A DNA stretch of 57,521 bases. Source: Deltaproteobacteria bacterium (GTDB taxonomy: Bacteria > Desulfobacterota > Syntrophia > Syntrophales > UBA2210). The stretch is from contig JAFGTS010000007.1 of NCBI GenBank assembly GCA_016933965.1, forward strand, positions 1 through 57,521. Reading direction: 5' to 3'. This document shows positions 1 through 12,763 of the stretch, piece after piece (positions within the stretch are counted from its first letter, which is position 1; every line of letters starts with the position of its first letter). The translations under genes were made by a program, and so were the position numbers. Below the pieces are notes generated by a model. That model worked only from the letters and a program-made list of their open reading frames with translations, did not search any database and was not told the origin of the DNA.

Positions 1-3000
1 TCCTATGCCTGGACGACGGACTACACGGGCCCTGATGTAAGCATCACCGGCGGACCTGATGAGCTTACCAATCAGAACACGGCGGCCTTCACCTTCGGCA
101 GTGAAGAAACACCCATCACCTATGCCTACAGTCTCGACGGTGAGATCTGGACGGCCACCGGCGCCACACTCGATCTTTCGGGCATTCCCGAGGGCGAGAA
201 CCAACTTTTCATGAAAGGAAGCGACAACGTCGGGAACGAAAGCAACATTGCAATTTACATCTGGTCAACTGATTACACTGCACCTGACGTGTTGTTCATG
301 GGCACACCCGATGAATTCATCAATCAGCCCATGGCAGTTTTCTCCTTCGGTGCAGATGAAGCTCCTGTAACGTACTCTTACAGTCTCGACAACGGGGAAA
401 CATGGATTGGAACAGGCGACACCCTTAACCTTTTTGGTCTCGGTGAAGGTGTGTATGAGATCCTGCTCACGGCAACGGACGAAGCCGGGAACACATCCCC
501 TGCCATCGCCTATGGATGGGCCGTCGATATGACAAACCCTTTCATTGACGCCCTCACGGTTACCCCTGTTGCAGGGACAATCTGGTCGAATATCACCACG
601 TCCAGCGATGAAATAGTTACCTTTTCTTACAGCCTCGACGGCGGTGAAACATGGTACGTTACAGGAGGAACTCTCGATGTATCCGACATCCCGGCCGGAC
701 AGGTGGATCTTCTCGTATCCGCAACCGACCTCGCCGGTAACGACACTCAAAACAGTTATTCCTTTTATCTGAACCGGTATTTTCTCTCCGGCCTTGCTTC
801 AGGAACAGGAAGTGACCTTGAAGGCTCAGCGACCGGTGATGTATCCGTTGTTCTGGATGATAACTGGGGTAGCTGGCTCATTGATATGAACGGAACTTAT
901 ACGGGCACACACACCCTCGCCTGGAACCTTCTCTCGGGCGGTGATGTGTTGGATGAAAATGAACTTTCGGTCGGATACTGGTTGAGCAGTGCAAATGGCA
1001 CCTATGACGGCACCGACATGTCCGGATTTTCTTCTCTGACATACCTGACGAGAACGACGATCAGCAGAGGCAATACCGGAACGGTGACCGGTTCATACGA
1101 TGCAGGAAGCTCCACCTGGGATATCCAGGACAGCGGCATCGACGAGCTTTCTGAAATATCCCTGTCCTTTTCAAGCGATATCGGGGCCTCTTTTTATTAC
1201 GGAGAGGACAATGACGGATATCCCGGCTTTGTAAATGCCGGCGATATTGCCGGCCTCATGGGTGGTTCCGCTACTCTCTGGGATGGGACCGATATATATT
1301 CCTATCTCCTGGGCTCATACAGCCATGAGGGGAAAAGTGCCTGGTATGGAAGCGAGATCTACAGTAGCAACGCTTCAAATGAGAGCTATACCACCTATGA
1401 CGGCGGCGCCTATTGCGGACTGATGGGCGGCGTGGAGGAAAACGACCTCCTTCGGGGCGGTTTTCTGGGCATTTACATCGCCCCTGACGGTGAAGCGGGA
1501 TATCTCCTGGGCGACCTCGAGGGGACGGGCTATCCCGATATAGACATGTTCGAAATGACCGGCACCATGAACCGTGATGCGGTCACGGCAGGTTGTGGCA
1601 TAGCGGCGCAGGACCTGAGCGACAACCTTTATTATGGGCTCATCGTTCCCGTGGTCATACGCGGTGAGTTCCTCGACGGCGGGATGATCGGTGGTTACTG
1701 CGCTCAGGGGGACACCCTGTCCATTTTTGACTATTCTTCATCGGTCGCTCAGAACTGGGGTATATATGGTCTCTCTCTATATGGGACATTCTGGAATGAA
1801 ACAACCGATTGGGCCATGACCATCGGCGGCGACGGCTCATTCGGTGCCTACGGCGATGGAACAGGCAATTACGGGTATTTCATGCTGGATGTCTGGCAGA
1901 ATGAAGAGGGAGAAGGCGTTGATGGCCGTTTCCTGACGTACACCACGCTGGGAACCATGGGCGGCGACGGGTTCCTCTCGTCAAATTCCCTTGAGAGTTC
2001 CTGGGAAGGCGTTTTCCTGGGCGCATGGAACAGCGAGCCCCTTTCCTTCAGCGGTGACATATACGAATTGAACGGCTGGGACGAAGGACCGGCCTTTCAA
2101 CTGTACACCGATACGGGAGAAGTATTTGATTTTACCGGGGGGTATGTTGAGGGCTTAATGGGAGGGCTTGAATCAACGTGGTATCCGGATCCCTTTGCCG
2201 TCGTGTATCAGGGAGAATATGACGCCATGGGATACGCTCCCGGCACACCCTATATCTGGAACAGCGTTGTGTACTCATACAACTGGCTTGACGATACATA
2301 TACCACGTATGACGGCGGGGCATACCGGGGGTTTGCCGGAGGCGTCTGGTCGGATTCGGACATTACCGGCCGGACCATCATGCTGTCCGTTTTTCCTGAC
2401 GGCTCGGTGGGTTACCTAACGGGAGACCTTGCCGGCCGGTATTATCAGGACCTGTATTCCAATGACATCGGGATATACGAAGCTGATGGCACCTGGACAT
2501 CAACCGTCATTTCCTCTCCTGGATTGCTCGATCCTGCAGTTTTTTATGAAAGCATCAGCACCGACGCAGACATGTATGTAGTACTGGGTGGAACGTTCAG
2601 CGGGGGAAACGGCTCACTCAACGGCTCATCCCTCCTTATCGATGGTGACATCACCTGGGCTGGCTGGACGCAGTATCTTGACGGCCTGGACTGGGGTATC
2701 TACAACGTCATTATCGACGGCTACGGAAGCGGGTACACCAATCCCGACGGTGATACCGACTGGACGGGAAAGCTGGGTGGTACGGCCGTGTTCGGAACTG
2801 TGTTCGATGGAGAAGGTTATGTTAGTGACCAGGGATACTGGATCGCCGGCATACCGGACGGTGGCTGGCAGGATGGCATTCTTGACGGTACCCTGTCGGG
2901 AACGTTTATAAGCGCATACCGGATGGGCAGCATTACAGGTGATATGCTTGGTTATTACGATGAATCCGGCAACTGGGCCGCCACCGGTATGGGCGTGTAT

Positions 3001-6000
3001 GAAGGTGTCCCGCTTGCCTTCAGCGGGCAATGGGGGGAAACAGAAGGGGGAACACTGTATTACAACAATGCCGGCAACTTTACCGCCGGGGGCGATGAAT
3101 TCGGACTCATTGGTTCTTTCACCCTGCCGGCGGCGGGACCCATGACCTGTTCGATCATGGGGATCTATGGGTTATATGAGGAACCGTCCCCGTCTCTGTT
3201 CAATACGGTTGTTGAAGGCTGGGATACGGCCACAGGGGGAGACGATGTGCACTGTCTCGGATATGCCGCCGGTGTCTGGAGCGGTGAGTCGATGTTCGGA
3301 AGCATTCTCGCCCTCTACGGTGACAGCGATGACATGTATGGCATCCTCGCTGACGGTTCCTTTTCGGGATCCTTCTACCCGGAAATCGGCATGTGGGACG
3401 CAACGTCAACCCTGACCCTCCTGTTCACCGAAGAGCATGCCCTCGGAAATGTGAGCGCTGTAGAAGGGACCCTTTCCATGATGAGCGGGAATTATGCCTT
3501 TTCCGGTACCTTTGATGGTGATGGATATATCCGTGCGGCCGATCTGTCCGGAACGACCCTCTTCTTTTACTCGGATGTTACCGGAAGTGCTCCCTGGGGT
3601 ATCTACGATCTCAAGATCGGTTCCAGCGAAAACATCTTTTCCCGTCCTGCCGGTGCAGACTCATGGCAGGCGGTTACCGGCGGTTCTGGTGAGTTCGGCT
3701 ATGATGGTGCCGCCTATGACTGGGGATACTGGCTTGCCTCGGTAAATGGAAGCTGGTCCGCCGATGGTGTCCTTGAAGGATATCTGGGAAACGATCCAAC
3801 GGAATTGCCAGATGATCCCGACACGTGGAGTATCTTTCTCTCCTATTACCTGATGGGAACCCTCCAGGGTCCCTTTTACGGCATCAGTGACAGTGGAACC
3901 TATACCTGGATCGGCGAGAGCGTGGGTGCCTGGGAGTGTGACGAACTTGCATACTTCGCCTTTACCGATAACGCACCAGGGACTTATGAACTCTATGGTG
4001 CTCCCCCTGAACAGCCTTTTGGCTGGCTCGACGATGTTCCACCGGGATTCGTCGGCGGCCTCGCTTCTCCCTGGTATGGACCTGCCGACATCGTTGTGAT
4101 AGGTGATTACAGATCCGACTATGATGATCTGTATCAGTATATCTGGATCAACGACCTTTACAGCCATGATGATTCCCGCCCTCTTGACGAGGTAACCTTC
4201 GATGACGGCGCCTTTTACGGATTCATCGGAGGCGCGTGGAACGGCGGTGCCATTGATGCCGGCGTTACGGCCCTCTACCGCGCTCCCGACGGAACCATCG
4301 GGGTGCTCCTGGGCTCACTTGGTGGCGGTTTTTACCATGATCTGCGGATGTTTCAGGTAACGGGCAGCTGGGAACCCATTACCCTGGGGACCACGGTTAT
4401 CCCGGCTGATCTTTTCTATGAATCGGTTCAGGAATCGAGGTTCGCTCCCTGCGGTATTTACGGCACCTTTACCAGCGGCGGCTCGATCAGTGGCGACGTC
4501 TTCAACGTCCTTGACGGATGGACGCGGTATCTCGACGATGAGGATTTCGGCATTTTCACCTGCATCCTTGACGGCTCGTGGGACAATCCCCTGGACGAAC
4601 AGGTCTGGACGGGAACTCTGGGCGGGAATGCCGTTTTCGGGACCGTCTGGGACGGTTCCGAAAACGTTGACGATACGGGCTACTGGATAGCTGCTATCTC
4701 TGACGGAACCTGGCAGGATGGTTCTCTGACCGGAACCGTCTCACCGGGCATCTTCCTGAGCGAATACAGAATGGGAACCATCTCGGGGGAATTGACGGGC
4801 TATTATTATGATGAAGCCGACTGGGCGGGGATAGGCCTGGGGATGTATGAAGGGGAACGGCTCCTCCTGAGCGGCACGGTATCGGGGAACCTGTACCGTA
4901 ACGACAGCGGCACCGTTCTGTATGCCGGAGACGTTTCAGGGCTCATCGGCTCCACGGGTCTCCCCTGGGATGCGATAGCTGCTCCATACCGATCAATGGG
5001 ACGTTTTACTTTCGATCATGTCTATACGCACTATCTGTGGAACGGGACAGTGACCGCACAGGAAACGAGCGGCGCCGATGGTCTCGTCGCGGGGTATACC
5101 GGCGGCATTGCCGTCGCGGAAAACCTGTTCGGCAACACCATCGCCATATTCATCAATGAAGACGGCGAAGCAGGATTTCTTACCGGCGATGTCGACAACT
5201 GCGGTTACTATGATTGGTATTATGATAGTGATTCGGGGCATTCACTGTGGTATTTCGATGGTTTAATTGGAGCCGGCATCAAAAATGCCGGGATTGATGT
5301 CGCTTCCTGCGAACTCTCATCCGACGTATACGCGGAAAATCCACCCTTCATGTATGCCAACCTGGCCGGAGCGTTCCTGAATGATGGCTATGTCGGATAT
5401 ATTTACGGTGGGCCTGATGACGGCAGCACGACCTTTTTCCTCTATGAGGGAGAAGCACCGGGATGGGGCATCTATGACTTCAAGATGGCGACGGCCTTCG
5501 GTGGAGGATTTGACCTCAAACCGGCGGGGGATGCCGAATGGTATGCAGGCATCGGTGGAGATGGTGAATTCGACGAGAGTGGCAGTGGGTACTGGAGCGG
5601 CACCGTTCTTGGCACCTGGACCGATACGGGCGAGATCATCGGGAACCTCGACGGCGTCTTTCTTACGCAACTGTACACGGGGACCATGACCGGCACATTC
5701 TTCGGCATTTCTGATGCCGGCACCTCCGGCACCTGGATCGGGGAGAGTGTCGGCGCTTACGAAGCAACCGATTCTCTCACCTTCAGCGGTCGTTTCAATG
5801 GCGATGTCGAGGTCGGAGATGGTTTTGGAGGATACGTGGAAGGAATCATCGGCGGCACAGACCCGCTTGTGGGCGACCCGACGTGGGGAGACCCCGGAAC
5901 GGCGGTTGGCTCTCTGTGTCTTGGTATCTATGACGGAGACAGCCTCTTTGGTTTTGGTGGATCTCTCAACGGATACATCGGCGGCGGGTCACTCGATAAC

Positions 6001-8595
6001 ACGGTTCTCTTCATGGGAGAATTGTGGGGTGATTACGACAGCGAGCTTGGCTACTGGGATCTCTCGTCGAGTGACATTCAATACATGACGGGCACGGAAA
6101 TCGGCATTATAGAGCTTCCCGGGAGCGCATTCTGGATCGATGACCAAACGCGGACCTGCGGATACGATTGGGACGATATCACCTTTATCAAGTGGGATGA
6201 CCTGGCGCTCGGCGGGACCTGGGGTGGCGATTCATACCCGCCTGCAAGCCTCTACTACCTCGATAACGGTTCCTTCGTACTCGGCGGCCATGAGTGGGGC
6301 CTCATCGGTGCCATTGAAGGCGAAGGCCTGATGCTTGTGGCCATGGGCAAATATGACTGTGACGAAGAACTGGCTTTCTGTGACCTTCTCTGGAACAGCA
6401 GGGTATCCGGCGGTGATTTTGATGGAAACACGTTCGAAGGATTCACCGCCGGTCTCTGGCGCTCTGGAGATACCACCATAATGGACGGTTACATGATCGC
6501 AATCACAGACGTGCCGATTGGATTTCTTGTATCCGATATCAGCGGTTATGCGGATCCGTTACTGAAAATGTGGATGATCGGGATCAGCGAGGACGTGTTC
6601 AGTTGGGTCGAATTATCGGAACCTCCTTTTATTGATGAAACGATCAACCCTGATAAGGTCGGCTCTGGCAACCTTGGTATAACCTTTTCGGGATTATCCG
6701 GATCTTTTGTGGATGAAGTGATGGAACCCACAGGGATCATCAATGGTGACCTCTGGTGGAGCGAAACGATGTTCTTCTATGATGATTCCGGAATATCACC
6801 GGGAAAGGAAACACCTTTTACCTGGGGAGTATGTGATCTGAAGTTCGGCGGTGCTTTGAATACCTATGAAGGGAAACCCTTTGTTGACGACATAGTATTT
6901 CTTGCTTACACTGGTGGAACGGGAACATTCGGGTATTCTTTGGATTCTGGTGATGACACAGGGTACTGGATCGCGTCGCTTCTGGGAAGCTGGTATGGTG
7001 ACGGCACCATCAACGGTTATTTCGGCGTATGGACCGCCGGCGATGTCCCGGATTTAGTGGGATTTTACATAACGCACCGGCAGACGGGAAACATGGGCGG
7101 ATGGCTCTACGGATTGCATGACACTGTGGAAGACGGCACATGGATCGGTGAAAGCGTCGGGTTTTATGGGGGACATCTTTTGAACTACGCGTCAGACGTA
7201 ACGATCCCACTTACAGCGGCCTCTTACAATCCTGAACTGGAGCAGATCGAGGTCATTTCATCGGGAACGTTGAGCGGCATCCTGGGCGGTTTTATCTCAG
7301 TGGAGGATGAATTCCGGTCAACTTTTATCGGGGACTACATCCCACCGGGCCCTGGATCTATCTGGTCAGGCACATTCTATAGCCATAACTTCGTGGACGG
7401 TACGAATACCACCTATGATGGCGGCCACTTCTATGGATACATTGGTGGAAATCACCACAACGATATCCTGACAGGCGGATTGATCGGCATGTACATTGAT
7501 CCGGACGGCATTGGAGCCGGCTACCGGGTTATTAATTATCTCGAAGGGCGCATCTGCCCGGCCATTGAAATGTTTGAAATAACCGGATGGGGCGCTTCTG
7601 TGAACGGCATGCAGTCAGGAGATCTCCTGCCGGGAGACCTTTCAGACCCGCTCAATCGCGATGATGATGCGCTGATCCTCAGCGGTGAAGGGGCTTTCTG
7701 GTTAAGTGGTGATGGTTATATTGACATTGGATATATATCGGCTGACACTGGTTTCTACGATGCCAAATACACCTCCGAATTCACCTCCATAAAAAACGAG
7801 AACTGGGGTATATGGTGGACGAATCTCTATGGCGGATATGATTTCGATGCAGGATATGATGAAAGCTCACCCGATTACTGGCAGCTCTCGCTTGCAGATG
7901 ATACGGGAGAAATCCACCAGTGGGTGGAGATATACAGCCCCGATTGGAATGACGGGGAAAACACCTGCCAGGCTGATGTTACCGGCGCCTGGCTGGACTG
8001 GAACGATGCCGTCACAGGCGTCATGGGGGGCACTTTGAAAGGGACCTTCAATGCGGCAACGTTCACCTGGGAGGCCACCGCCCTCGGAACGTGGATGGAT
8101 ACGGAGAAATTCCTCGACATGGTCAGTACCAATCCCACGGAACTCGACAAATTGAAAATTCCCGCTGTAGAGATCGGACGAACCGACCTCGTGGGTTGGG
8201 GTCCCGGTGAAAATTATGTTGTATATATGGATAACGTCATCTTCTTCGGATATTCTTCGGGTGCGCCACCGAGAATATGGGCAACCAATGAGGTCTACGG
8301 AAGCTTCATTTCAGCCCCCTCTCCGGGCGACCAGGCCATAATGGATGGCACGGGATTCAGTGAGAATGTCATCCTGGAAATACAGCAGTGGGGAGACAAA
8401 GCGCTAGATCCCTGGTCCGCGGAAATATATATGCGGTATGGAGGATATCCCTCCGGGTCGGTCGGTGGATACAACGTAGATATCAATGGTGCCGCGGCTG
8501 GAACCATAACTCAGTTGCCTGTTTCCGGTGGAGATGTATTTATGCCTGGGTTATTCACGGGGAATGGAGCCGGCACATCTACGGTAGTTCCGTAA
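1..8595 (+). CDS. Giant extracellular-type repeat protein, 5' end cut by window
   Basis: The reading frame is open from base 1, so at least 2,864 residues are present and the N-terminus lies outside. Residues 1 to about 255 form about three Ig-like repeats of roughly 80 residues, with motifs such as YSLDNGETW and ATDEAGN, as in bacterial adhesins. The rest is Gly/Asp/Tyr/Trp-rich, acidic and lysine-poor, and consists of an internal repeat of about 300 residues. Landmarks are TTYDGGAY near nt 1390 and 2302 with variants near 4192 and 7409, WIGESVG near 3909, 5737 and 7141, and GYWIA near 2836, 4678 and 6964. I count about seven units plus a partial one near 5900. No enzyme motif, LPXTG, autotransporter barrel or membrane segment is seen. 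Function is unknown; a cell-surface or secreted beta-solenoid or barrel-like adhesin is an inference. A composite repeat begins 5 bp after the stop. Confidence 0.85.
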   Translation, partial: SYAWTTDYTGPDVSITGGPDELTNQNTAAFTFGSEETPITYAYSLDGEIWTATGATLDLSGIPEGENQLFMKGSDNVGNESNIAIYIWSTDYTAPDVLFMGTPDEFINQPMAVFSFGADEAPVTYSYSLDNGETWIGTGDTLNLFGLGEGVYEILLTATDEAGNTSPAIAYGWAVDMTNPFIDALTVTPVAGTIWSNITTSSDEIVTFSYSLDGGETWYVTGGTLDVSDIPAGQVDLLVSATDLAGNDTQNSYSFYLNRYFLSGLASGTGSDLEGSATGDVSVVLDDNWGSWLIDMNGTYTGTHTLAWNLLSGGDVLDENELSVGYWLSSANGTYDGTDMSGFSSLTYLTRTTISRGNTGTVTGSYDAGSSTWDIQDSGIDELSEISLSFSSDIGASFYYGEDNDGYPGFVNAGDIAGLMGGSATLWDGTDIYSYLLGSYSHEGKSAWYGSEIYSSNASNESYTTYDGGAYCGLMGGVEENDLLRGGFLGIYIAPDGEAGYLLGDLEGTGYPDIDMFEMTGTMNRDAVTAGCGIAAQDLSDNLYYGLIVPVVIRGEFLDGGMIGGYCAQGDTLSIFDYSSSVAQNWGIYGLSLYGTFWNETTDWAMTIGGDGSFGAYGDGTGNYGYFMLDVWQNEEGEGVDGRFLTYTTLGTMGGDGFLSSNSLESSWEGVFLGAWNSEPLSFSGDIYELNGWDEGPAFQLYTDTGEVFDFTGGYVEGLMGGLESTWYPDPFAVVYQGEYDAMGYAPGTPYIWNSVVYSYNWLDDTYTTYDGGAYRGFAGGVWSDSDITGRTIMLSVFPDGSVGYLTGDLAGRYYQDLYSNDIGIYEADGTWTSTVISSPGLLDPAVFYESISTDADMYVVLGGTFSGGNGSLNGSSLLIDGDITWAGWTQYLDGLDWGIYNVIIDGYGSGYTNPDGDTDWTGKLGGTAVFGTVFDGEGYVSDQGYWIAGIPDGGWQDGILDGTLSGTFISAYRMGSITGDMLGYYDESGNWAATGMGVYEGVPLAFSGQWGETEGGTLYYNNAGNFTAGGDEFGLIGSFTLPAAGPMTCSIMGIYGLYEEPSPSLFNTVVEGWDTATGGDDVHCLGYAAGVWSGESMFGSILALYGDSDDMYGILADGSFSGSFYPEIGMWDATSTLTLLFTEEHALGNVSAVEGTLSMMSGNYAFSGTFDGDGYIRAADLSGTTLFFYSDVTGSAPWGIYDLKIGSSENIFSRPAGADSWQAVTGGSGEFGYDGAAYDWGYWLASVNGSWSADGVLEGYLGNDPTELPDDPDTWSIFLSYYLMGTLQGPFYGISDSGTYTWIGESVGAWECDELAYFAFTDNAPGTYELYGAPPEQPFGWLDDVPPGFVGGLASPWYGPADIVVIGDYRSDYDDLYQYIWINDLYSHDDSRPLDEVTFDDGAFYGFIGGAWNGGAIDAGVTALYRAPDGTIGVLLGSLGGGFYHDLRMFQVTGSWEPITLGTTVIPADLFYESVQESRFAPCGIYGTFTSGGSISGDVFNVLDGWTRYLDDEDFGIFTCILDGSWDNPLDEQVWTGTLGGNAVFGTVWDGSENVDDTGYWIAAISDGTWQDGSLTGTVSPGIFLSEYRMGTISGELTGYYYDEADWAGIGLGMYEGERLLLSGTVSGNLYRNDSGTVLYAGDVSGLIGSTGLPWDAIAAPYRSMGRFTFDHVYTHYLWNGTVTAQETSGADGLVAGYTGGIAVAENLFGNTIAIFINEDGEAGFLTGDVDNCGYYDWYYDSDSGHSLWYFDGLIGAGIKNAGIDVASCELSSDVYAENPPFMYANLAGAFLNDGYVGYIYGGPDDGSTTFFLYEGEAPGWGIYDFKMATAFGGGFDLKPAGDAEWYAGIGGDGEFDESGSGYWSGTVLGTWTDTGEIIGNLDGVFLTQLYTGTMTGTFFGISDAGTSGTWIGESVGAYEATDSLTFSGRFNGDVEVGDGFGGYVEGIIGGTDPLVGDPTWGDPGTAVGSLCLGIYDGDSLFGFGGSLNGYIGGGSLDNTVLFMGELWGDYDSELGYWDLSSSDIQYMTGTEIGIIELPGSAFWIDDQTRTCGYDWDDITFIKWDDLALGGTWGGDSYPPASLYYLDNGSFVLGGHEWGLIGAIEGEGLMLVAMGKYDCDEELAFCDLLWNSRVSGGDFDGNTFEGFTAGLWRSGDTTIMDGYMIAITDVPIGFLVSDISGYADPLLKMWMIGISEDVFSWVELSEPPFIDETINPDKVGSGNLGITFSGLSGSFVDEVMEPTGIINGDLWWSETMFFYDDSGISPGKETPFTWGVCDLKFGGALNTYEGKPFVDDIVFLAYTGGTGTFGYSLDSGDDTGYWIASLLGSWYGDGTINGYFGVWTAGDVPDLVGFYITHRQTGNMGGWLYGLHDTVEDGTWIGESVGFYGGHLLNYASDVTIPLTAASYNPELEQIEVISSGTLSGILGGFISVEDEFRSTFIGDYIPPGPGSIWSGTFYSHNFVDGTNTTYDGGHFYGYIGGNHHNDILTGGLIGMYIDPDGIGAGYRVINYLEGRICPAIEMFEITGWGASVNGMQSGDLLPGDLSDPLNRDDDALILSGEGAFWLSGDGYIDIGYISADTGFYDAKYTSEFTSIKNENWGIWWTNLYGGYDFDAGYDESSPDYWQLSLADDTGEIHQWVEIYSPDWNDGENTCQADVTGAWLDWNDAVTGVMGGTLKGTFNAATFTWEATALGTWMDTEKFLDMVSTNPTELDKLKIPAVEIGRTDLVGWGPGENYVVYMDNVIFFGYSSGAPPRIWATNEVYGSFISAPSPGDQAIMDGTGFSENVILEIQQWGDKALDPWSAEIYMRYGGYPSGSVGGYNVDINGAAAGTITQLPVSGGDVFMPGLFTGNGAGTSTVVP

Positions 8596-8599
8596 GGGG

Positions 8600-8810
8600 T
8601 CGAAAAGCGACAAAGTGGCAGAGCGACAGAGTGACAAAGTGTCAAACACACAGCACGAGAAAGAAATGTAGTTGCCCGATTCATCGGGCGGTTTTCTCCT
8701 CCCTTTGAAAAAGGGAGGCCGGGAGGGATTTATAAAGGAGGGAATTTCGGGGAACTCAGGCAATTTCCTTCCAATTTGTAATCCGTAATCCAATTAATCC
8801 ATAATCCCGA
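8600..8810 (-). repeat. Composite intergenic element, full copy, reverse orientation
   Basis: Read on the minus strand it runs from ATTACGG-type repeats (8775-8805) through a core to a CACTTTGT/CGCTCTGT octamer array (8600-8645). The core has a CCTCCCTTT hairpin at 8699-8719 and the palindrome GCCCGATGAATCGGGC at 8674-8689. It matches 13041-13247 over its whole length with few mismatches. Confidence 0.85.
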
Positions 8811-9636: not shown

Positions 9637-9783
9637 CGCCGATTTATCGGCGTTTTAAAAGCGCCCGATGAATCGGGCAACTACATTTCTTTCTCGTACC
9701 GTGTATTTAGCACTTTGTCGCTCTGCCCCTTTGTCACTCTATCACTTTGTCACTCTGTCGCTTTGCCCCTTTGTCGCTGCATT
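9637..9783 (+). repeat. Composite intergenic element, right half only
   Basis: It contains palindrome CGCCGATTTATCGGCG (9637-9652), then GCCCGATGAATCGGGC (9663-9678), then CTACATTTCTTTCTCGT, then an 8-bp-period CACTTTGT/CGCTCTGC array to about 9780. This equals the right half of 13041-13247. It ends beside the stop codon of the convergent gene at 9786. Nothing else is seen between 9549 and 9785. Confidence 0.8.
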
Positions 9784-9785
9784 TC

Positions 9786-12659
9786 TTATTTCACATACCC
9801 CGCTATCCCATCATACCGGTATCCCCGGTTCTGATACCCTTCCCCCGCCGGGTCGGTAGTGAAATAGTGCCTGCCCGTATTCACGTTGTACCACCGGTAA
9901 AGTTCCTTCGTTCCCGGCAGGGGGATAGTGGCGATACTGCCGACAGGACCTTCAAGGACATAGCCTTCCAGATCCGTTTTCTCCACCTCGGTTTCATAAG
10001 AATAATAATAATCCTTCAGTTGCGGATTGAACCAGCGGAAGAACTCCGTCGTTCCCGGAGAACCTTTCTGAAAGAGTCGGAATGATACGGGTTGTTCAGC
10101 TCCTTCAGTTCGTGTCGACAGCAGCACGGAGCCTGCTGTTTGGTACGAATATATATCTATCATATCAGAGGGGTTACCCTCCATAATATCAAGTGCTACT
10201 TGAACTATCTCGCTGGTTTCATCGGTGTAAAAAATGATGTTTTCCGCATACTGTCCGGCCGGCAGTCCCCCGGTATCGACGGTCACGTTCACATAATCGG
10301 TCTCGTTCGTGGTTGTTCCACGGTCGGGAAAGATCTGAAGCCATTGCCCCCTTCCCCGTTTTATCTCTCCGCCGTAAACGGTCACACCCTCGATTTCAGC
10401 CACGCCCTTACGAACCGTCAGGGTAAGTATATGCAACCCCGCATCAAGCTCCTCGTCGATGGGAACGACGATCCTCTCTCTTTTAAAAGAGGCGCAGTCT
10501 ATTTCTTGCCGGGCCTCACCATCCATAAAGATGTTCACGATCCCCCCGTTGCTGTCCTTCCAGAGATAGAGGGCGACCCCCGTTCCGCTGAAGGTGAAAC
10601 GGAGGGTGTCACGGTTCGCGGTGCTTAACGGATATCCATCGTGTTGTCCCCACTCCCCGGACAAAAAGAGCTTTCCCTTGATATGCTCCGGCACGATGTA
10701 GGAAGTGGTGCCTGGATCCGTTTCATTCAGAAACGAATAGTACCGGCCCCGGGTGAGCGGAAAATTCCGAAAGCTCGTTCGGTTTTTCTGTGCGATCGTA
10801 TTCCATGCAAGAACGTTTTTCCCTCTGTTCTCAATGGTCACCTTTTTCACGGACCGTGTTCCCGTCCCGAGAACACCAAAATCCAGACCATGCGGCTCCA
10901 CGTACAATTCAGGTCGAGTACGTTTTCCGGTCACCTCGTAAGCAACAAAGAGAGTTCGCGCCCCGCCGTTATATTCGATGGGCAGTTCCTCACGATACCG
11001 GCCCTGCGGGAGGTCCCTGCGGTGGTATATGCGCCCCGTATCCGATTCAACGACCAACTGGACGGGATAGGTTTTCCGAAGAAGAGGCGCATCTGAACCA
11101 TCATCGATCAGTGACCGCGCATAAATATTTAAATATCGCCGATGACGGGTAACGGCACCGTTCAAGGACCGCCTTTCCTCCCCTTCCGGCACGTCTTTGA
11201 AGCCGGCAGACCACTCGAGCGTTCCGGTCCCCACGTTGCTGAGCAGGAAAACCCCCCGGCCGCTTTCACCGGGGCCGATCTTTCCAAGGCCCACTTCGTG
11301 AGGCGTCACCTTCAAAACAGGACTTAATGGTACGTCCTGGATATCTATGTGAACTTCGTTGCTGCGGGACCCCCCGATCATTCTCGACACCGCGGCGTGT
11401 CCTTCCTCCTTTGCGGCAAAACGTGCCCTGCCCGCGGTGAAAGAACCTTTTGCAGCATCCGATACCAGCCAGTTTCCGTCACGAGAAGTCGAAAGATCGC
11501 TTCTGCGCCCGTCCGACCAGATGCCGGTGACCCTGAAGTCCATCGTATCGCCCTTGTTCATGAAAACATTTACGGGGCTCAGAAGGATTTCCTTGAGTGT
11601 CACCACCTCCATGGATATATCGACCGCCTCATCTCCGCCGTTTGACTCTATATACAATCGTTCATGATAGGTACCCGCGGGGAGTCCCGTCGTATCAATG
11701 AAGACAGGCACCCGTGCAGGGCCTTTCCCCGCAAGAACCTGCAGACCTGCCTCATCCCCCCCGGGTCCTCCCTCCTGCAAGCCCCAGCCGCTCTCGGGTT
11801 CCACTGTTGCCCTGACGGGCGCTCCCGGTTTGGCAAATCGTATCCAGCCGCCGGAAGCGGTGACTTTCCATTCAAGCTCCCCGTCTTTGCTGTTTCTGAT
11901 ACTGATGAATTCGTCCCGAAGCATGCCCGATGGAACCCGCCCGACGGAAATCTCAGTGGACGGCACGGCCAGGACCGGCCCCTCCGTCGCATCGACCCGT
12001 ATAATGACAACGGGACTGCGCACCTGTGACTTTTCTGCAATAATAAAGGTGTCGCCCTCGGTCCGTGCGCTCAGAAGCCCGCCTCTTTCAAAGGCGGCGA
12101 TGCGGGTGTTTCCCGATCTCCATGAGACCTGATCCGAAAGGTCACGAACCGAACCATCGGCATATACTCCCCGGGCCTGGAACCGCTTTTTCCCGCCGGC
12201 GGGAATCGCTTCCGTCCCCCCGGTGATGATCAGTTCTTCAAGGATCGGCGGCGGGGCCGATCGCCACGCGAGAAGGGTAAAGGACACCGGCACGGTCTGG
12301 ATGCCTGCCGAAGATGCGATGATAAGCCGTGTATCATATCGGCCGGGTTTCAGGTCAAGGGGATCCAGGGTAAGGATGATCGACACCGGCTCGGCACCGA
12401 GAATGCCGGAGCCGGGACTGATATCAAGACCGTTTCCATTGCCTTCGGTGATCCACCAGCGGAGAGGGTCCACACCGTGACTTCGGGTCAGCAGGAGCGT
12501 GCGGCTCTTTAATTCTCTCCCTCTGACGATGCCGAAGTCCACGGTTTCAGGTTCTACCAGCAGATCCGTCGATCGAGCGTGGATCGAGGAGGACGTGATG
12601 AGCACCATGCCGCACACCATGACAAGAACGATACCGCATATCAATGCTCGAGAACCCAT
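9786..12659 (-). CDS. Secreted multidomain Ig-like protein with C-terminal DUF5648-like repeats
   Basis: A 957-residue protein. The ATG at 12659 has AAGGTGG just upstream; a GTG 63 nt further up lacks this. A signal peptide covers about residues 1-30, with cleavage near SIHA. After it come alternating ASH/BACON-like beta domains (VDFGIVRGRELKSRTL; LDFGVLGTGTRSVKK) and Big_2-like domains (VFMNKGDTMDFRVTG). Around residues 670-770 is a carbohydrate-binding-like segment (FSGTGVALYLWKD, NIFMDGE). The last about 95 residues carry two copies of the pattern FFRWFNPQLKDYYYS / YRWYNVNTGRHYFTT, typical of DUF5648. It probably acts outside the cytoplasm. No catalytic domain or anchor is seen. It is transcribed towards the tRNA unit, and a repeat array begins about 6 bp after its stop. 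Confidence 0.85.
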   Translation of the reverse strand: MGSRALICGIVLVMVCGMVLITSSSIHARSTDLLVEPETVDFGIVRGRELKSRTLLLTRSHGVDPLRWWITEGNGNGLDISPGSGILGAEPVSIILTLDPLDLKPGRYDTRLIIASSAGIQTVPVSFTLLAWRSAPPPILEELIITGGTEAIPAGGKKRFQARGVYADGSVRDLSDQVSWRSGNTRIAAFERGGLLSARTEGDTFIIAEKSQVRSPVVIIRVDATEGPVLAVPSTEISVGRVPSGMLRDEFISIRNSKDGELEWKVTASGGWIRFAKPGAPVRATVEPESGWGLQEGGPGGDEAGLQVLAGKGPARVPVFIDTTGLPAGTYHERLYIESNGGDEAVDISMEVVTLKEILLSPVNVFMNKGDTMDFRVTGIWSDGRRSDLSTSRDGNWLVSDAAKGSFTAGRARFAAKEEGHAAVSRMIGGSRSNEVHIDIQDVPLSPVLKVTPHEVGLGKIGPGESGRGVFLLSNVGTGTLEWSAGFKDVPEGEERRSLNGAVTRHRRYLNIYARSLIDDGSDAPLLRKTYPVQLVVESDTGRIYHRRDLPQGRYREELPIEYNGGARTLFVAYEVTGKRTRPELYVEPHGLDFGVLGTGTRSVKKVTIENRGKNVLAWNTIAQKNRTSFRNFPLTRGRYYSFLNETDPGTTSYIVPEHIKGKLFLSGEWGQHDGYPLSTANRDTLRFTFSGTGVALYLWKDSNGGIVNIFMDGEARQEIDCASFKRERIVVPIDEELDAGLHILTLTVRKGVAEIEGVTVYGGEIKRGRGQWLQIFPDRGTTTNETDYVNVTVDTGGLPAGQYAENIIFYTDETSEIVQVALDIMEGNPSDMIDIYSYQTAGSVLLSTRTEGAEQPVSFRLFQKGSPGTTEFFRWFNPQLKDYYYSYETEVEKTDLEGYVLEGPVGSIATIPLPGTKELYRWYNVNTGRHYFTTDPAGEGYQNRGYRYDGIAGYVK

Positions 12660-12763
12660 GATCCACCTTTTCTGAGGACTTCCCGGACCTGGCCGGCCCG
12701 ATGACCGCTGTTTTCTGCTCACGCGGCAACGCTATTATATGTACACCGGGTTGTCAAGATGAG

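Follow-up and report, generated by a model that had tools for sequence, protein, structure and literature searches.

The first gene of the window, the 57,521-bp stretch of DNA analysed here, encodes a giant β-rich protein that is likely to be a surface protein of many lobes, transported as cargo by a Slam-like (type 11) translocon and carrying a FecR domain in place of the lipid anchor. The window is one entire contig (C7), from an assembly of 2.85 Mb, and the giant gene extends beyond the first base of this contig. The reading draws on the array of two-part units in the protein, the predicted fold of these units, and the domain order and gene neighbourhood of intact relatives in other genomes.

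An array of two-part units

The window protein starts with three Ig-like repeats. A single half unit comes next, and after it seven full units and then a conserved C-terminal domain (Table 1). Each unit is composed of an A half, which carries the YDGGAY motif, and a B half of the type WGIY ... GYWIA ... GTxxGxxxG. A unit HMM, derived from 54 lobes found in other genomes and free of window sequence, recovered all seven full units (i-E 1e-33 to 6e-68), and 200 shuffles of the window protein produced no comparable score with the half-unit profiles. With units 2-3 as query, positions 4513-5784 were recovered at 43% identity (E 2e-52), and identity among the window units amounts to 27-34%.

An earlier note, made from the sequence alone, had described a giant β-repeat protein of about seven highly divergent units of about 300 residues, each in two halves and about 900 nt apart. 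The open frame of 2864 aa, the all-β model of 1.5 units, the seven full units (plus one half) and the low identity between them bear out this description, and each landmark position that it gave coincides with the start of a unit's first half. The spacing holds in general but is broken by a stretch of about 480 nt between units 5 and 6, and the motifs that it quoted are approximations, YDGGAY-like sequences occurring in four of the seven units and GYW[IL]A also in four of seven.

Table 1. Features of the giant protein gene in the window; scores of units 1 to 7 are from the profile without window sequence.
Feature	Position (nt)	Strand	Evidence and remarks
Giant protein gene	1..8595	+	2864 aa and stop (8593-8595); 5' end lost at contig start
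Three Ig-like repeats	1..786 (about 1-267, 268-519, 520-786)	+	first incomplete; OmpL47-type and Big_13 matches under cut-off
Lone B half (second half of a unit)	856..1188 (about)	+	profile match i-E 6e-12
Unit 1 (A half and B half)	1234..2061	+	i-E 1e-57
Unit 2	2137..3039	+	i-E 6e-68
Unit 3	3088..3969	+	i-E 1e-55
Unit 4	4045..4887	+	i-E 1e-65
Unit 5	4921..5805	+	i-E 9e-54
Interval between units 5 and 6, about 480 nt, tentatively a degenerate A-half-like stretch	5806..6282	+	translation; partial match 6064-6795
Unit 6	6283..7200	+	i-E 2e-35
Unit 7	7261..8121	+	i-E 1e-33
AlphaFold2-modelled stretch (unit 3 B half and unit 4)	3586..4914	+	all-β, pLDDT 84, pTM 0.86
Conserved C-terminal domain, GAAAG...GxFxGxGAG type tail	8035..8592	+	i-E 1e-38, profile from other genomes; overlaps the end of unit 7

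The A-half and B-half profiles can be aligned over 101 columns with a score of 39, compared with at most 13.9 for 20 shuffles, so that the two halves are probably related and the unit itself probably arose by an old internal duplication; caution is needed here, since the reversed profile, too, had an elevated score (24.5). Searches of Pfam, NCBIfam and the PDB sequences with the entire protein, with 17 stretches covering units and with 55 lobes matched no family. By sequence the unit thus has no named family, in line with the earlier note, which recognised none. TbpB_B_D (PF01298) in particular was undetected by sequence both in the 55 lobes and in the window protein. Because this sequence test failed, we do not file the window protein in the TbpB family; our claim is that it works like one of its members.

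The Ig-like repeats that the earlier note had placed at the N-terminus are present, although their matches stay under the cut-offs for the OmpL47-type model (32.6 versus 40 bits) and for Big_13 (18.7 versus 27 bits). In the relative L026 Big_13 reaches 103.5 bits, and in L026 and L035 Ig-like repeats resembling those of the window come after the FecR domain. The C-terminal tail of the GAAAG...GxFxGxGAG type is common to most relatives in the alignment.

Distribution and domain order of relatives

Units are carried by 29 of the 155 genomes in the window's order (Syntrophales), by 22 of 395 genomes sampled across the phylum and by 13 of 193 genomes in Omnitrophota; one carrier is a complete genome on a single contig of 3,179,300 bp. 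Because the same unit is present in two phyla, the expansion is, judged from sequence, an old one, as had been proposed from the divergence of the repeats.

Intact relatives of 900-2900 aa share one domain order: a signal peptide is followed by a FecR domain, a linker, in some cases Ig repeats, the units (up to about eight) and the C-terminal domain. The linker looks disordered and is rich either in Pro and Thr or in Lys and Glu. FecR (PF04773) scores above cut-off in four intact relatives, and a FecR motif is found in 27 of the 36 unit loci. Read by eye, the N-termini of the relatives are signal-peptide-like and devoid of a lipobox Cys. One relative from Omnitrophota (L041, 4145-11191, + strand) appears to have two tandem FecR domains before its units. 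At six loci (L028, L031, L039, L045, L055 and L059) the FecR portion is apparently encoded in a different open frame from the units, by assembly error or as a real split.

Predicted fold of the unit

For structure prediction, which the earlier note had suggested as a check, AlphaFold2 was given 443 residues comprising a B half, an A half and a further B half (1.5 units), with 17 sequences from the window and from named genome records. The resulting all-β model contains many strands of 12-18 residues, and its second B half has about eight strands; a lobe of TbpB-like T11SS cargo combines a handle with an eight-stranded barrel. A model of an A half together with the C-terminal domain, for which only four sequences were available, had a pLDDT of 32. 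Foldseek searches with the 1.5-unit model were led by porins and other outer-membrane proteins at TM 0.09-0.18; the best E was 4.5e-3, with nothing under 0.001, and this ranking was not used.

When Foldseek's candidates were re-aligned against the model with VIA, 32 of 34 first places fell to hemophilin (the haemophore 6om5), HphA, fHbp, TbpB, HpuA and LbpB, all of them Slam/T11SS cargo or close relatives thereof, and the porins of the same candidate list ranked lower. Most alignments lie within model residues 121-428, a range made up of one A half and the B half after it. The best match has a Z of 5.7 (rmsd 3.8, 140 residues), at a level (Z 5-6) that unrelated models can attain, and 443 residues make a poor query for a single domain. 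In the model, the unit most resembles the haem- and transferrin-binding lobes of bacterial T11SS cargo, the match being modest and not decisive. Taken by itself, a Z of at most 5.7 may reflect a common arrangement; the match gains weight because its class is uniform and because the neighbouring gene, described below, was found independently.

The modest Z, together with the lack of any sequence-profile match to TbpB-type barrels, would also fit a surface rod or adhesin that is exported by the neighbouring TPR-barrel and whose units are an unrelated β-fold with a merely convergent likeness to T11SS lobes. We regard such convergence as rather unlikely, given that almost every leading structural match is a cargo protein of a single pathway and that a homolog of the translocon of this very pathway adjoins nearly every locus.

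In relatives, a SlipAM-related TPR-barrel gene precedes the unit gene

Clustering of the genes that neighbour the unit genes yielded one dominant family of about 530 aa, with a signal peptide, TPR repeats and a barrel that ends in an aromatic residue. Of the non-duplicate loci, 31 have 1.5 kb or more of upstream sequence. In 30 of these the TPR-barrel gene lies directly upstream of the unit gene in the same orientation, and it usually overlaps the unit gene or is separated from it by no more than about 100 nt; at the sole exception the upstream region is masked by Ns and retains a TPR-barrel fragment. In Syntrophales the barrel is present in 25 of 29 unit genomes, compared with 7 of the 126 genomes that lack units (Fisher p 1.4e-18); independently of this, the Omnitrophota have it in 13 of 13 unit genomes, compared with 5 of 180 (p 1.6e-16). 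These p values overstate independence because the species are related. The window's own genome is one of the four unit genomes in which a strong barrel match is missing. Where a barrel occurs without detectable units (L089, L091 and L093), a FecR protein still comes next.

The alignment of the partner barrel with SlipAM (PF04575) proteins covers 277 columns and has an E of 1e-10; its score of 77 compares with at most 24 for 20 shuffles and 16 for the reversed profile. Against a SlipAM-positive paralog group, to which two proteins of the window genome belong, one of them over the SlipAM cut-off, the match improves to E 2e-22. A barrel member from the window's family (L087) attains 23.0 bits for SlipAM against a cut-off of 22, and the barrel of G024:C53 also exceeds it; most other partners stay under. 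All 18 partners examined give weak TPR_Slam matches and combine an N-terminal TPR part with a C-terminal outer-membrane barrel. At the level of profile comparison the partner barrel is homologous to SlipAM/Slam, and the partners make up a separate barrel group with 26-51% identity to one member.

The layout of TPR and barrel, and the BBP2_2 matches of 17 of the 18 partners, are likewise compatible with a polysaccharide exporter related to PgaA, BcsC or PelB, in which case the unit protein would not be secretion cargo but a polymer-binding matrix protein of the periplasm or surface. This assignment is improbable in view of the strong homology between barrel and SlipAM and of the one member that exceeds the SlipAM cut-off; moreover, neither glycosyltransferase nor polymer genes are prominent among the recurring neighbours, and at loci that lack units the barrel is still paired with a FecR protein.

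Other genes recur less often. An OmpH/Skp-like gene is found near 8 of the 36 unit loci and a SurA-like gene near 7; Skp is required for the transport of TbpB by Slam and keeps TbpB unfolded (PMC9090332). A CHASE2 sensor gene lies near nine unit loci, including L041, L043, L044, L045, L047, L048, L054 and L055, and the sensor protein of L041 carries a SpoIIE phosphatase domain. Autotransport and two-partner secretion were also considered and rejected, as neither a C-terminal autotransporter barrel (Pfam) nor a recurring TpsB-like neighbour was found.

The surface location that the earlier note had deduced from the Ig repeats is supported, chiefly because intact relatives have a signal peptide and an adjacent Slam-like barrel gene and not by the Ig repeats alone.

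Proposed export route and comparison with known systems

On this basis we propose that the giant chain is exported by Sec, with a signal peptide like that of the relatives, and that periplasmic chaperones such as Skp would hold it unfolded. The neighbouring TPR-barrel of the SlipAM superfamily would then recognise the C-terminal domain and carry the chain across the outer membrane; once at the surface, each unit of about 300 residues may fold as a two-part lobe like those of TbpB and hemophilin. Seven such lobes behind the Ig repeats would form a long rod. The FecR domain, probably periplasmic, and the charged or Pro/Thr-rich linker, threading the barrel, would replace the lipid anchor. A function in binding or cell contact is proposed, of which adhesion or ligand capture by the lobes is, by analogy, the likeliest form. 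That the units are instead membrane-embedded, porin-like barrels is highly improbable: porins led the first Foldseek list and many strands have a suitable length, but the E values and TM scores of these matches are poor, soluble cargo outranks porins after re-alignment, and we know of no precedent for a single chain that forms some 14 membrane barrels in a row.

Cargo of the Slam/T11SS (TXISS) pathway includes TbpB, hemophilin, HphA, fHbp and HpuA (PMC8406197, PMC12282271). The proteins described here are like such cargo in the best structural matches of the unit, in the conserved C-terminal domain, in the Skp-like genes near some loci and, in the relatives, in the Sec signal and the adjacent TPR-barrel gene of the SlipAM superfamily. 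They differ in the number of lobes, which is one to three in T11SS cargo, seven here and up to about eight in relatives, as well as in the N-terminal FecR domain and missing lipobox of the relatives, in the lack of sequence similarity to TbpB_B_D, and in their occurrence in Desulfobacterota and Omnitrophota. Two to three lobe copies have been reported for proteins of Sphingomonas and Psychrobacter, and T11SS is predominantly known from Proteobacteria, its experimentally verified translocons coming solely from one animal-associated cluster (PMC12282271).

The partner shares the N-terminal TPR of SlipAM/DUF560 proteins (PF04575) and aligns with their barrel over its whole length, whereas most partners fall under the Pfam cut-off and group separately. 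Intact relatives share the FecR domain with other FecR-domain proteins (PF04773) and carry it immediately after the signal peptide; no regulator domain is seen, and linker, Ig repeats and units come after it. The anti-sigma FecR proteins that act in iron signalling are laid out differently. Giant Ig-repeat adhesins (Bap/RTX type, Ca_tandemer, OmpL47-type) have Ig-like repeats, large size and a likely surface rod in common with the window protein; in contrast to them, its bulk consists of two-part units of about 300 residues, and type 1 secretion genes are absent from the recurring neighbours.

Our literature search found no paper that links FecR with Slam/DUF560, and no report of giant lobe arrays, of FecR cargo or of T11SS in these phyla. 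At these loci, barrel genes and FecR cargo are clearly paired in bacteria from the environment, in syntrophs and in members of candidate phyla; one pair lies in a complete genome, and the cargo extends up to giant multi-lobe proteins. These data suggest that the T11SS pathway also exports giant proteins in phyla for which we found no report of it. If true, this would widen the pathway, suggest a route to long surface proteins and provide an anchor that needs no lipid. We see about even chances that the loci represent a separate Slam/T11SS branch of Desulfobacterota and Omnitrophota, with non-lipidated cargo, a periplasmic FecR anchor and giant rods of seven to eight lobes too far diverged from TbpB to be recognised by sequence.

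SlipAM-FecR pairs and the window locus

In Syntrophales, genes with a full SlipAM domain adjoin FecR-like proteins that display a C-terminal GSFYGPxAExxGG pattern. Several of these proteins match TbpB_B_D weakly, with E of about 1e-4, two matches in one genome being over cut-off, and FecR cargo beside SlipAM therefore has Pfam-level evidence. Seven loci of this kind (L095, L096, L097, L115, L116, L119 and L120), at which a SlipAM gene adjoins a FecR-like protein whose C-terminus resembles TbpB_B_D, are apparent classical T11SS pairs. Direct homology between the units and these TbpB_B_D-type tails was not found: profile comparison gave a probability of 0.7% against the unit barrel and 1.3% against the unit-type C-terminal domain. 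Since the tails match neither, these data do not establish a shared ancestry for the two kinds of cargo.

The window genome itself contains two triads of a TPR-barrel, a small FecR protein and a large secreted PKD-type protein with a terminal GG-x-CFI tail (L082, 10360-16938 on contig C27; L083, 7462-14004 on contig C3), which may represent a further class of cargo for this barrel superfamily. The only two FecR genes of the assembly belong to these other triads. Contig C27, on which a TPR-barrel gene precedes a FecR gene, was considered as the missing 5' part of the giant gene and rejected, as the cargo there is another one, a PKD-type protein of 1312 aa.

The signal peptide and secretion gene that the earlier note had proposed to look for upstream are seen in relatives, the secretion gene being SlipAM-related; the window's assembly lacks the 5' end of the gene, a matching FecR domain and a close cognate barrel. 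Downstream, the window encodes in order tRNA-His, tRNA-Arg, a DUF5648 protein, DprA, TopA and a TrmFO-like protein. In G010, a genome of the window's family, the unit gene is flanked by tRNA-His, tRNA-Arg, a homolog of the DUF5648 protein, DprA, TopA and TrmFO in the same order, and its ortholog in G013 (91% identical) is intact, with a barrel gene 20 nt upstream. From this synteny and the barrel adjoining the G013 ortholog, a barrel gene is expected past the contig start, upstream of the window's giant gene.

Just beyond the giant gene, two inverted arms of 92 nt (8604-8695 and 9657-9748; 85% complementary, with an 8-nt period of the GACAAAGT type) bracket a 148-aa ORF and the tRNA-His/tRNA-Arg pair. 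The adjacent DUF5648 protein (9789-12722, - strand, 978 aa) also has Ig-like (HYDIN-type) matches, and its homolog in the equivalent position beside the G010 unit gene (L086) is 30% identical.
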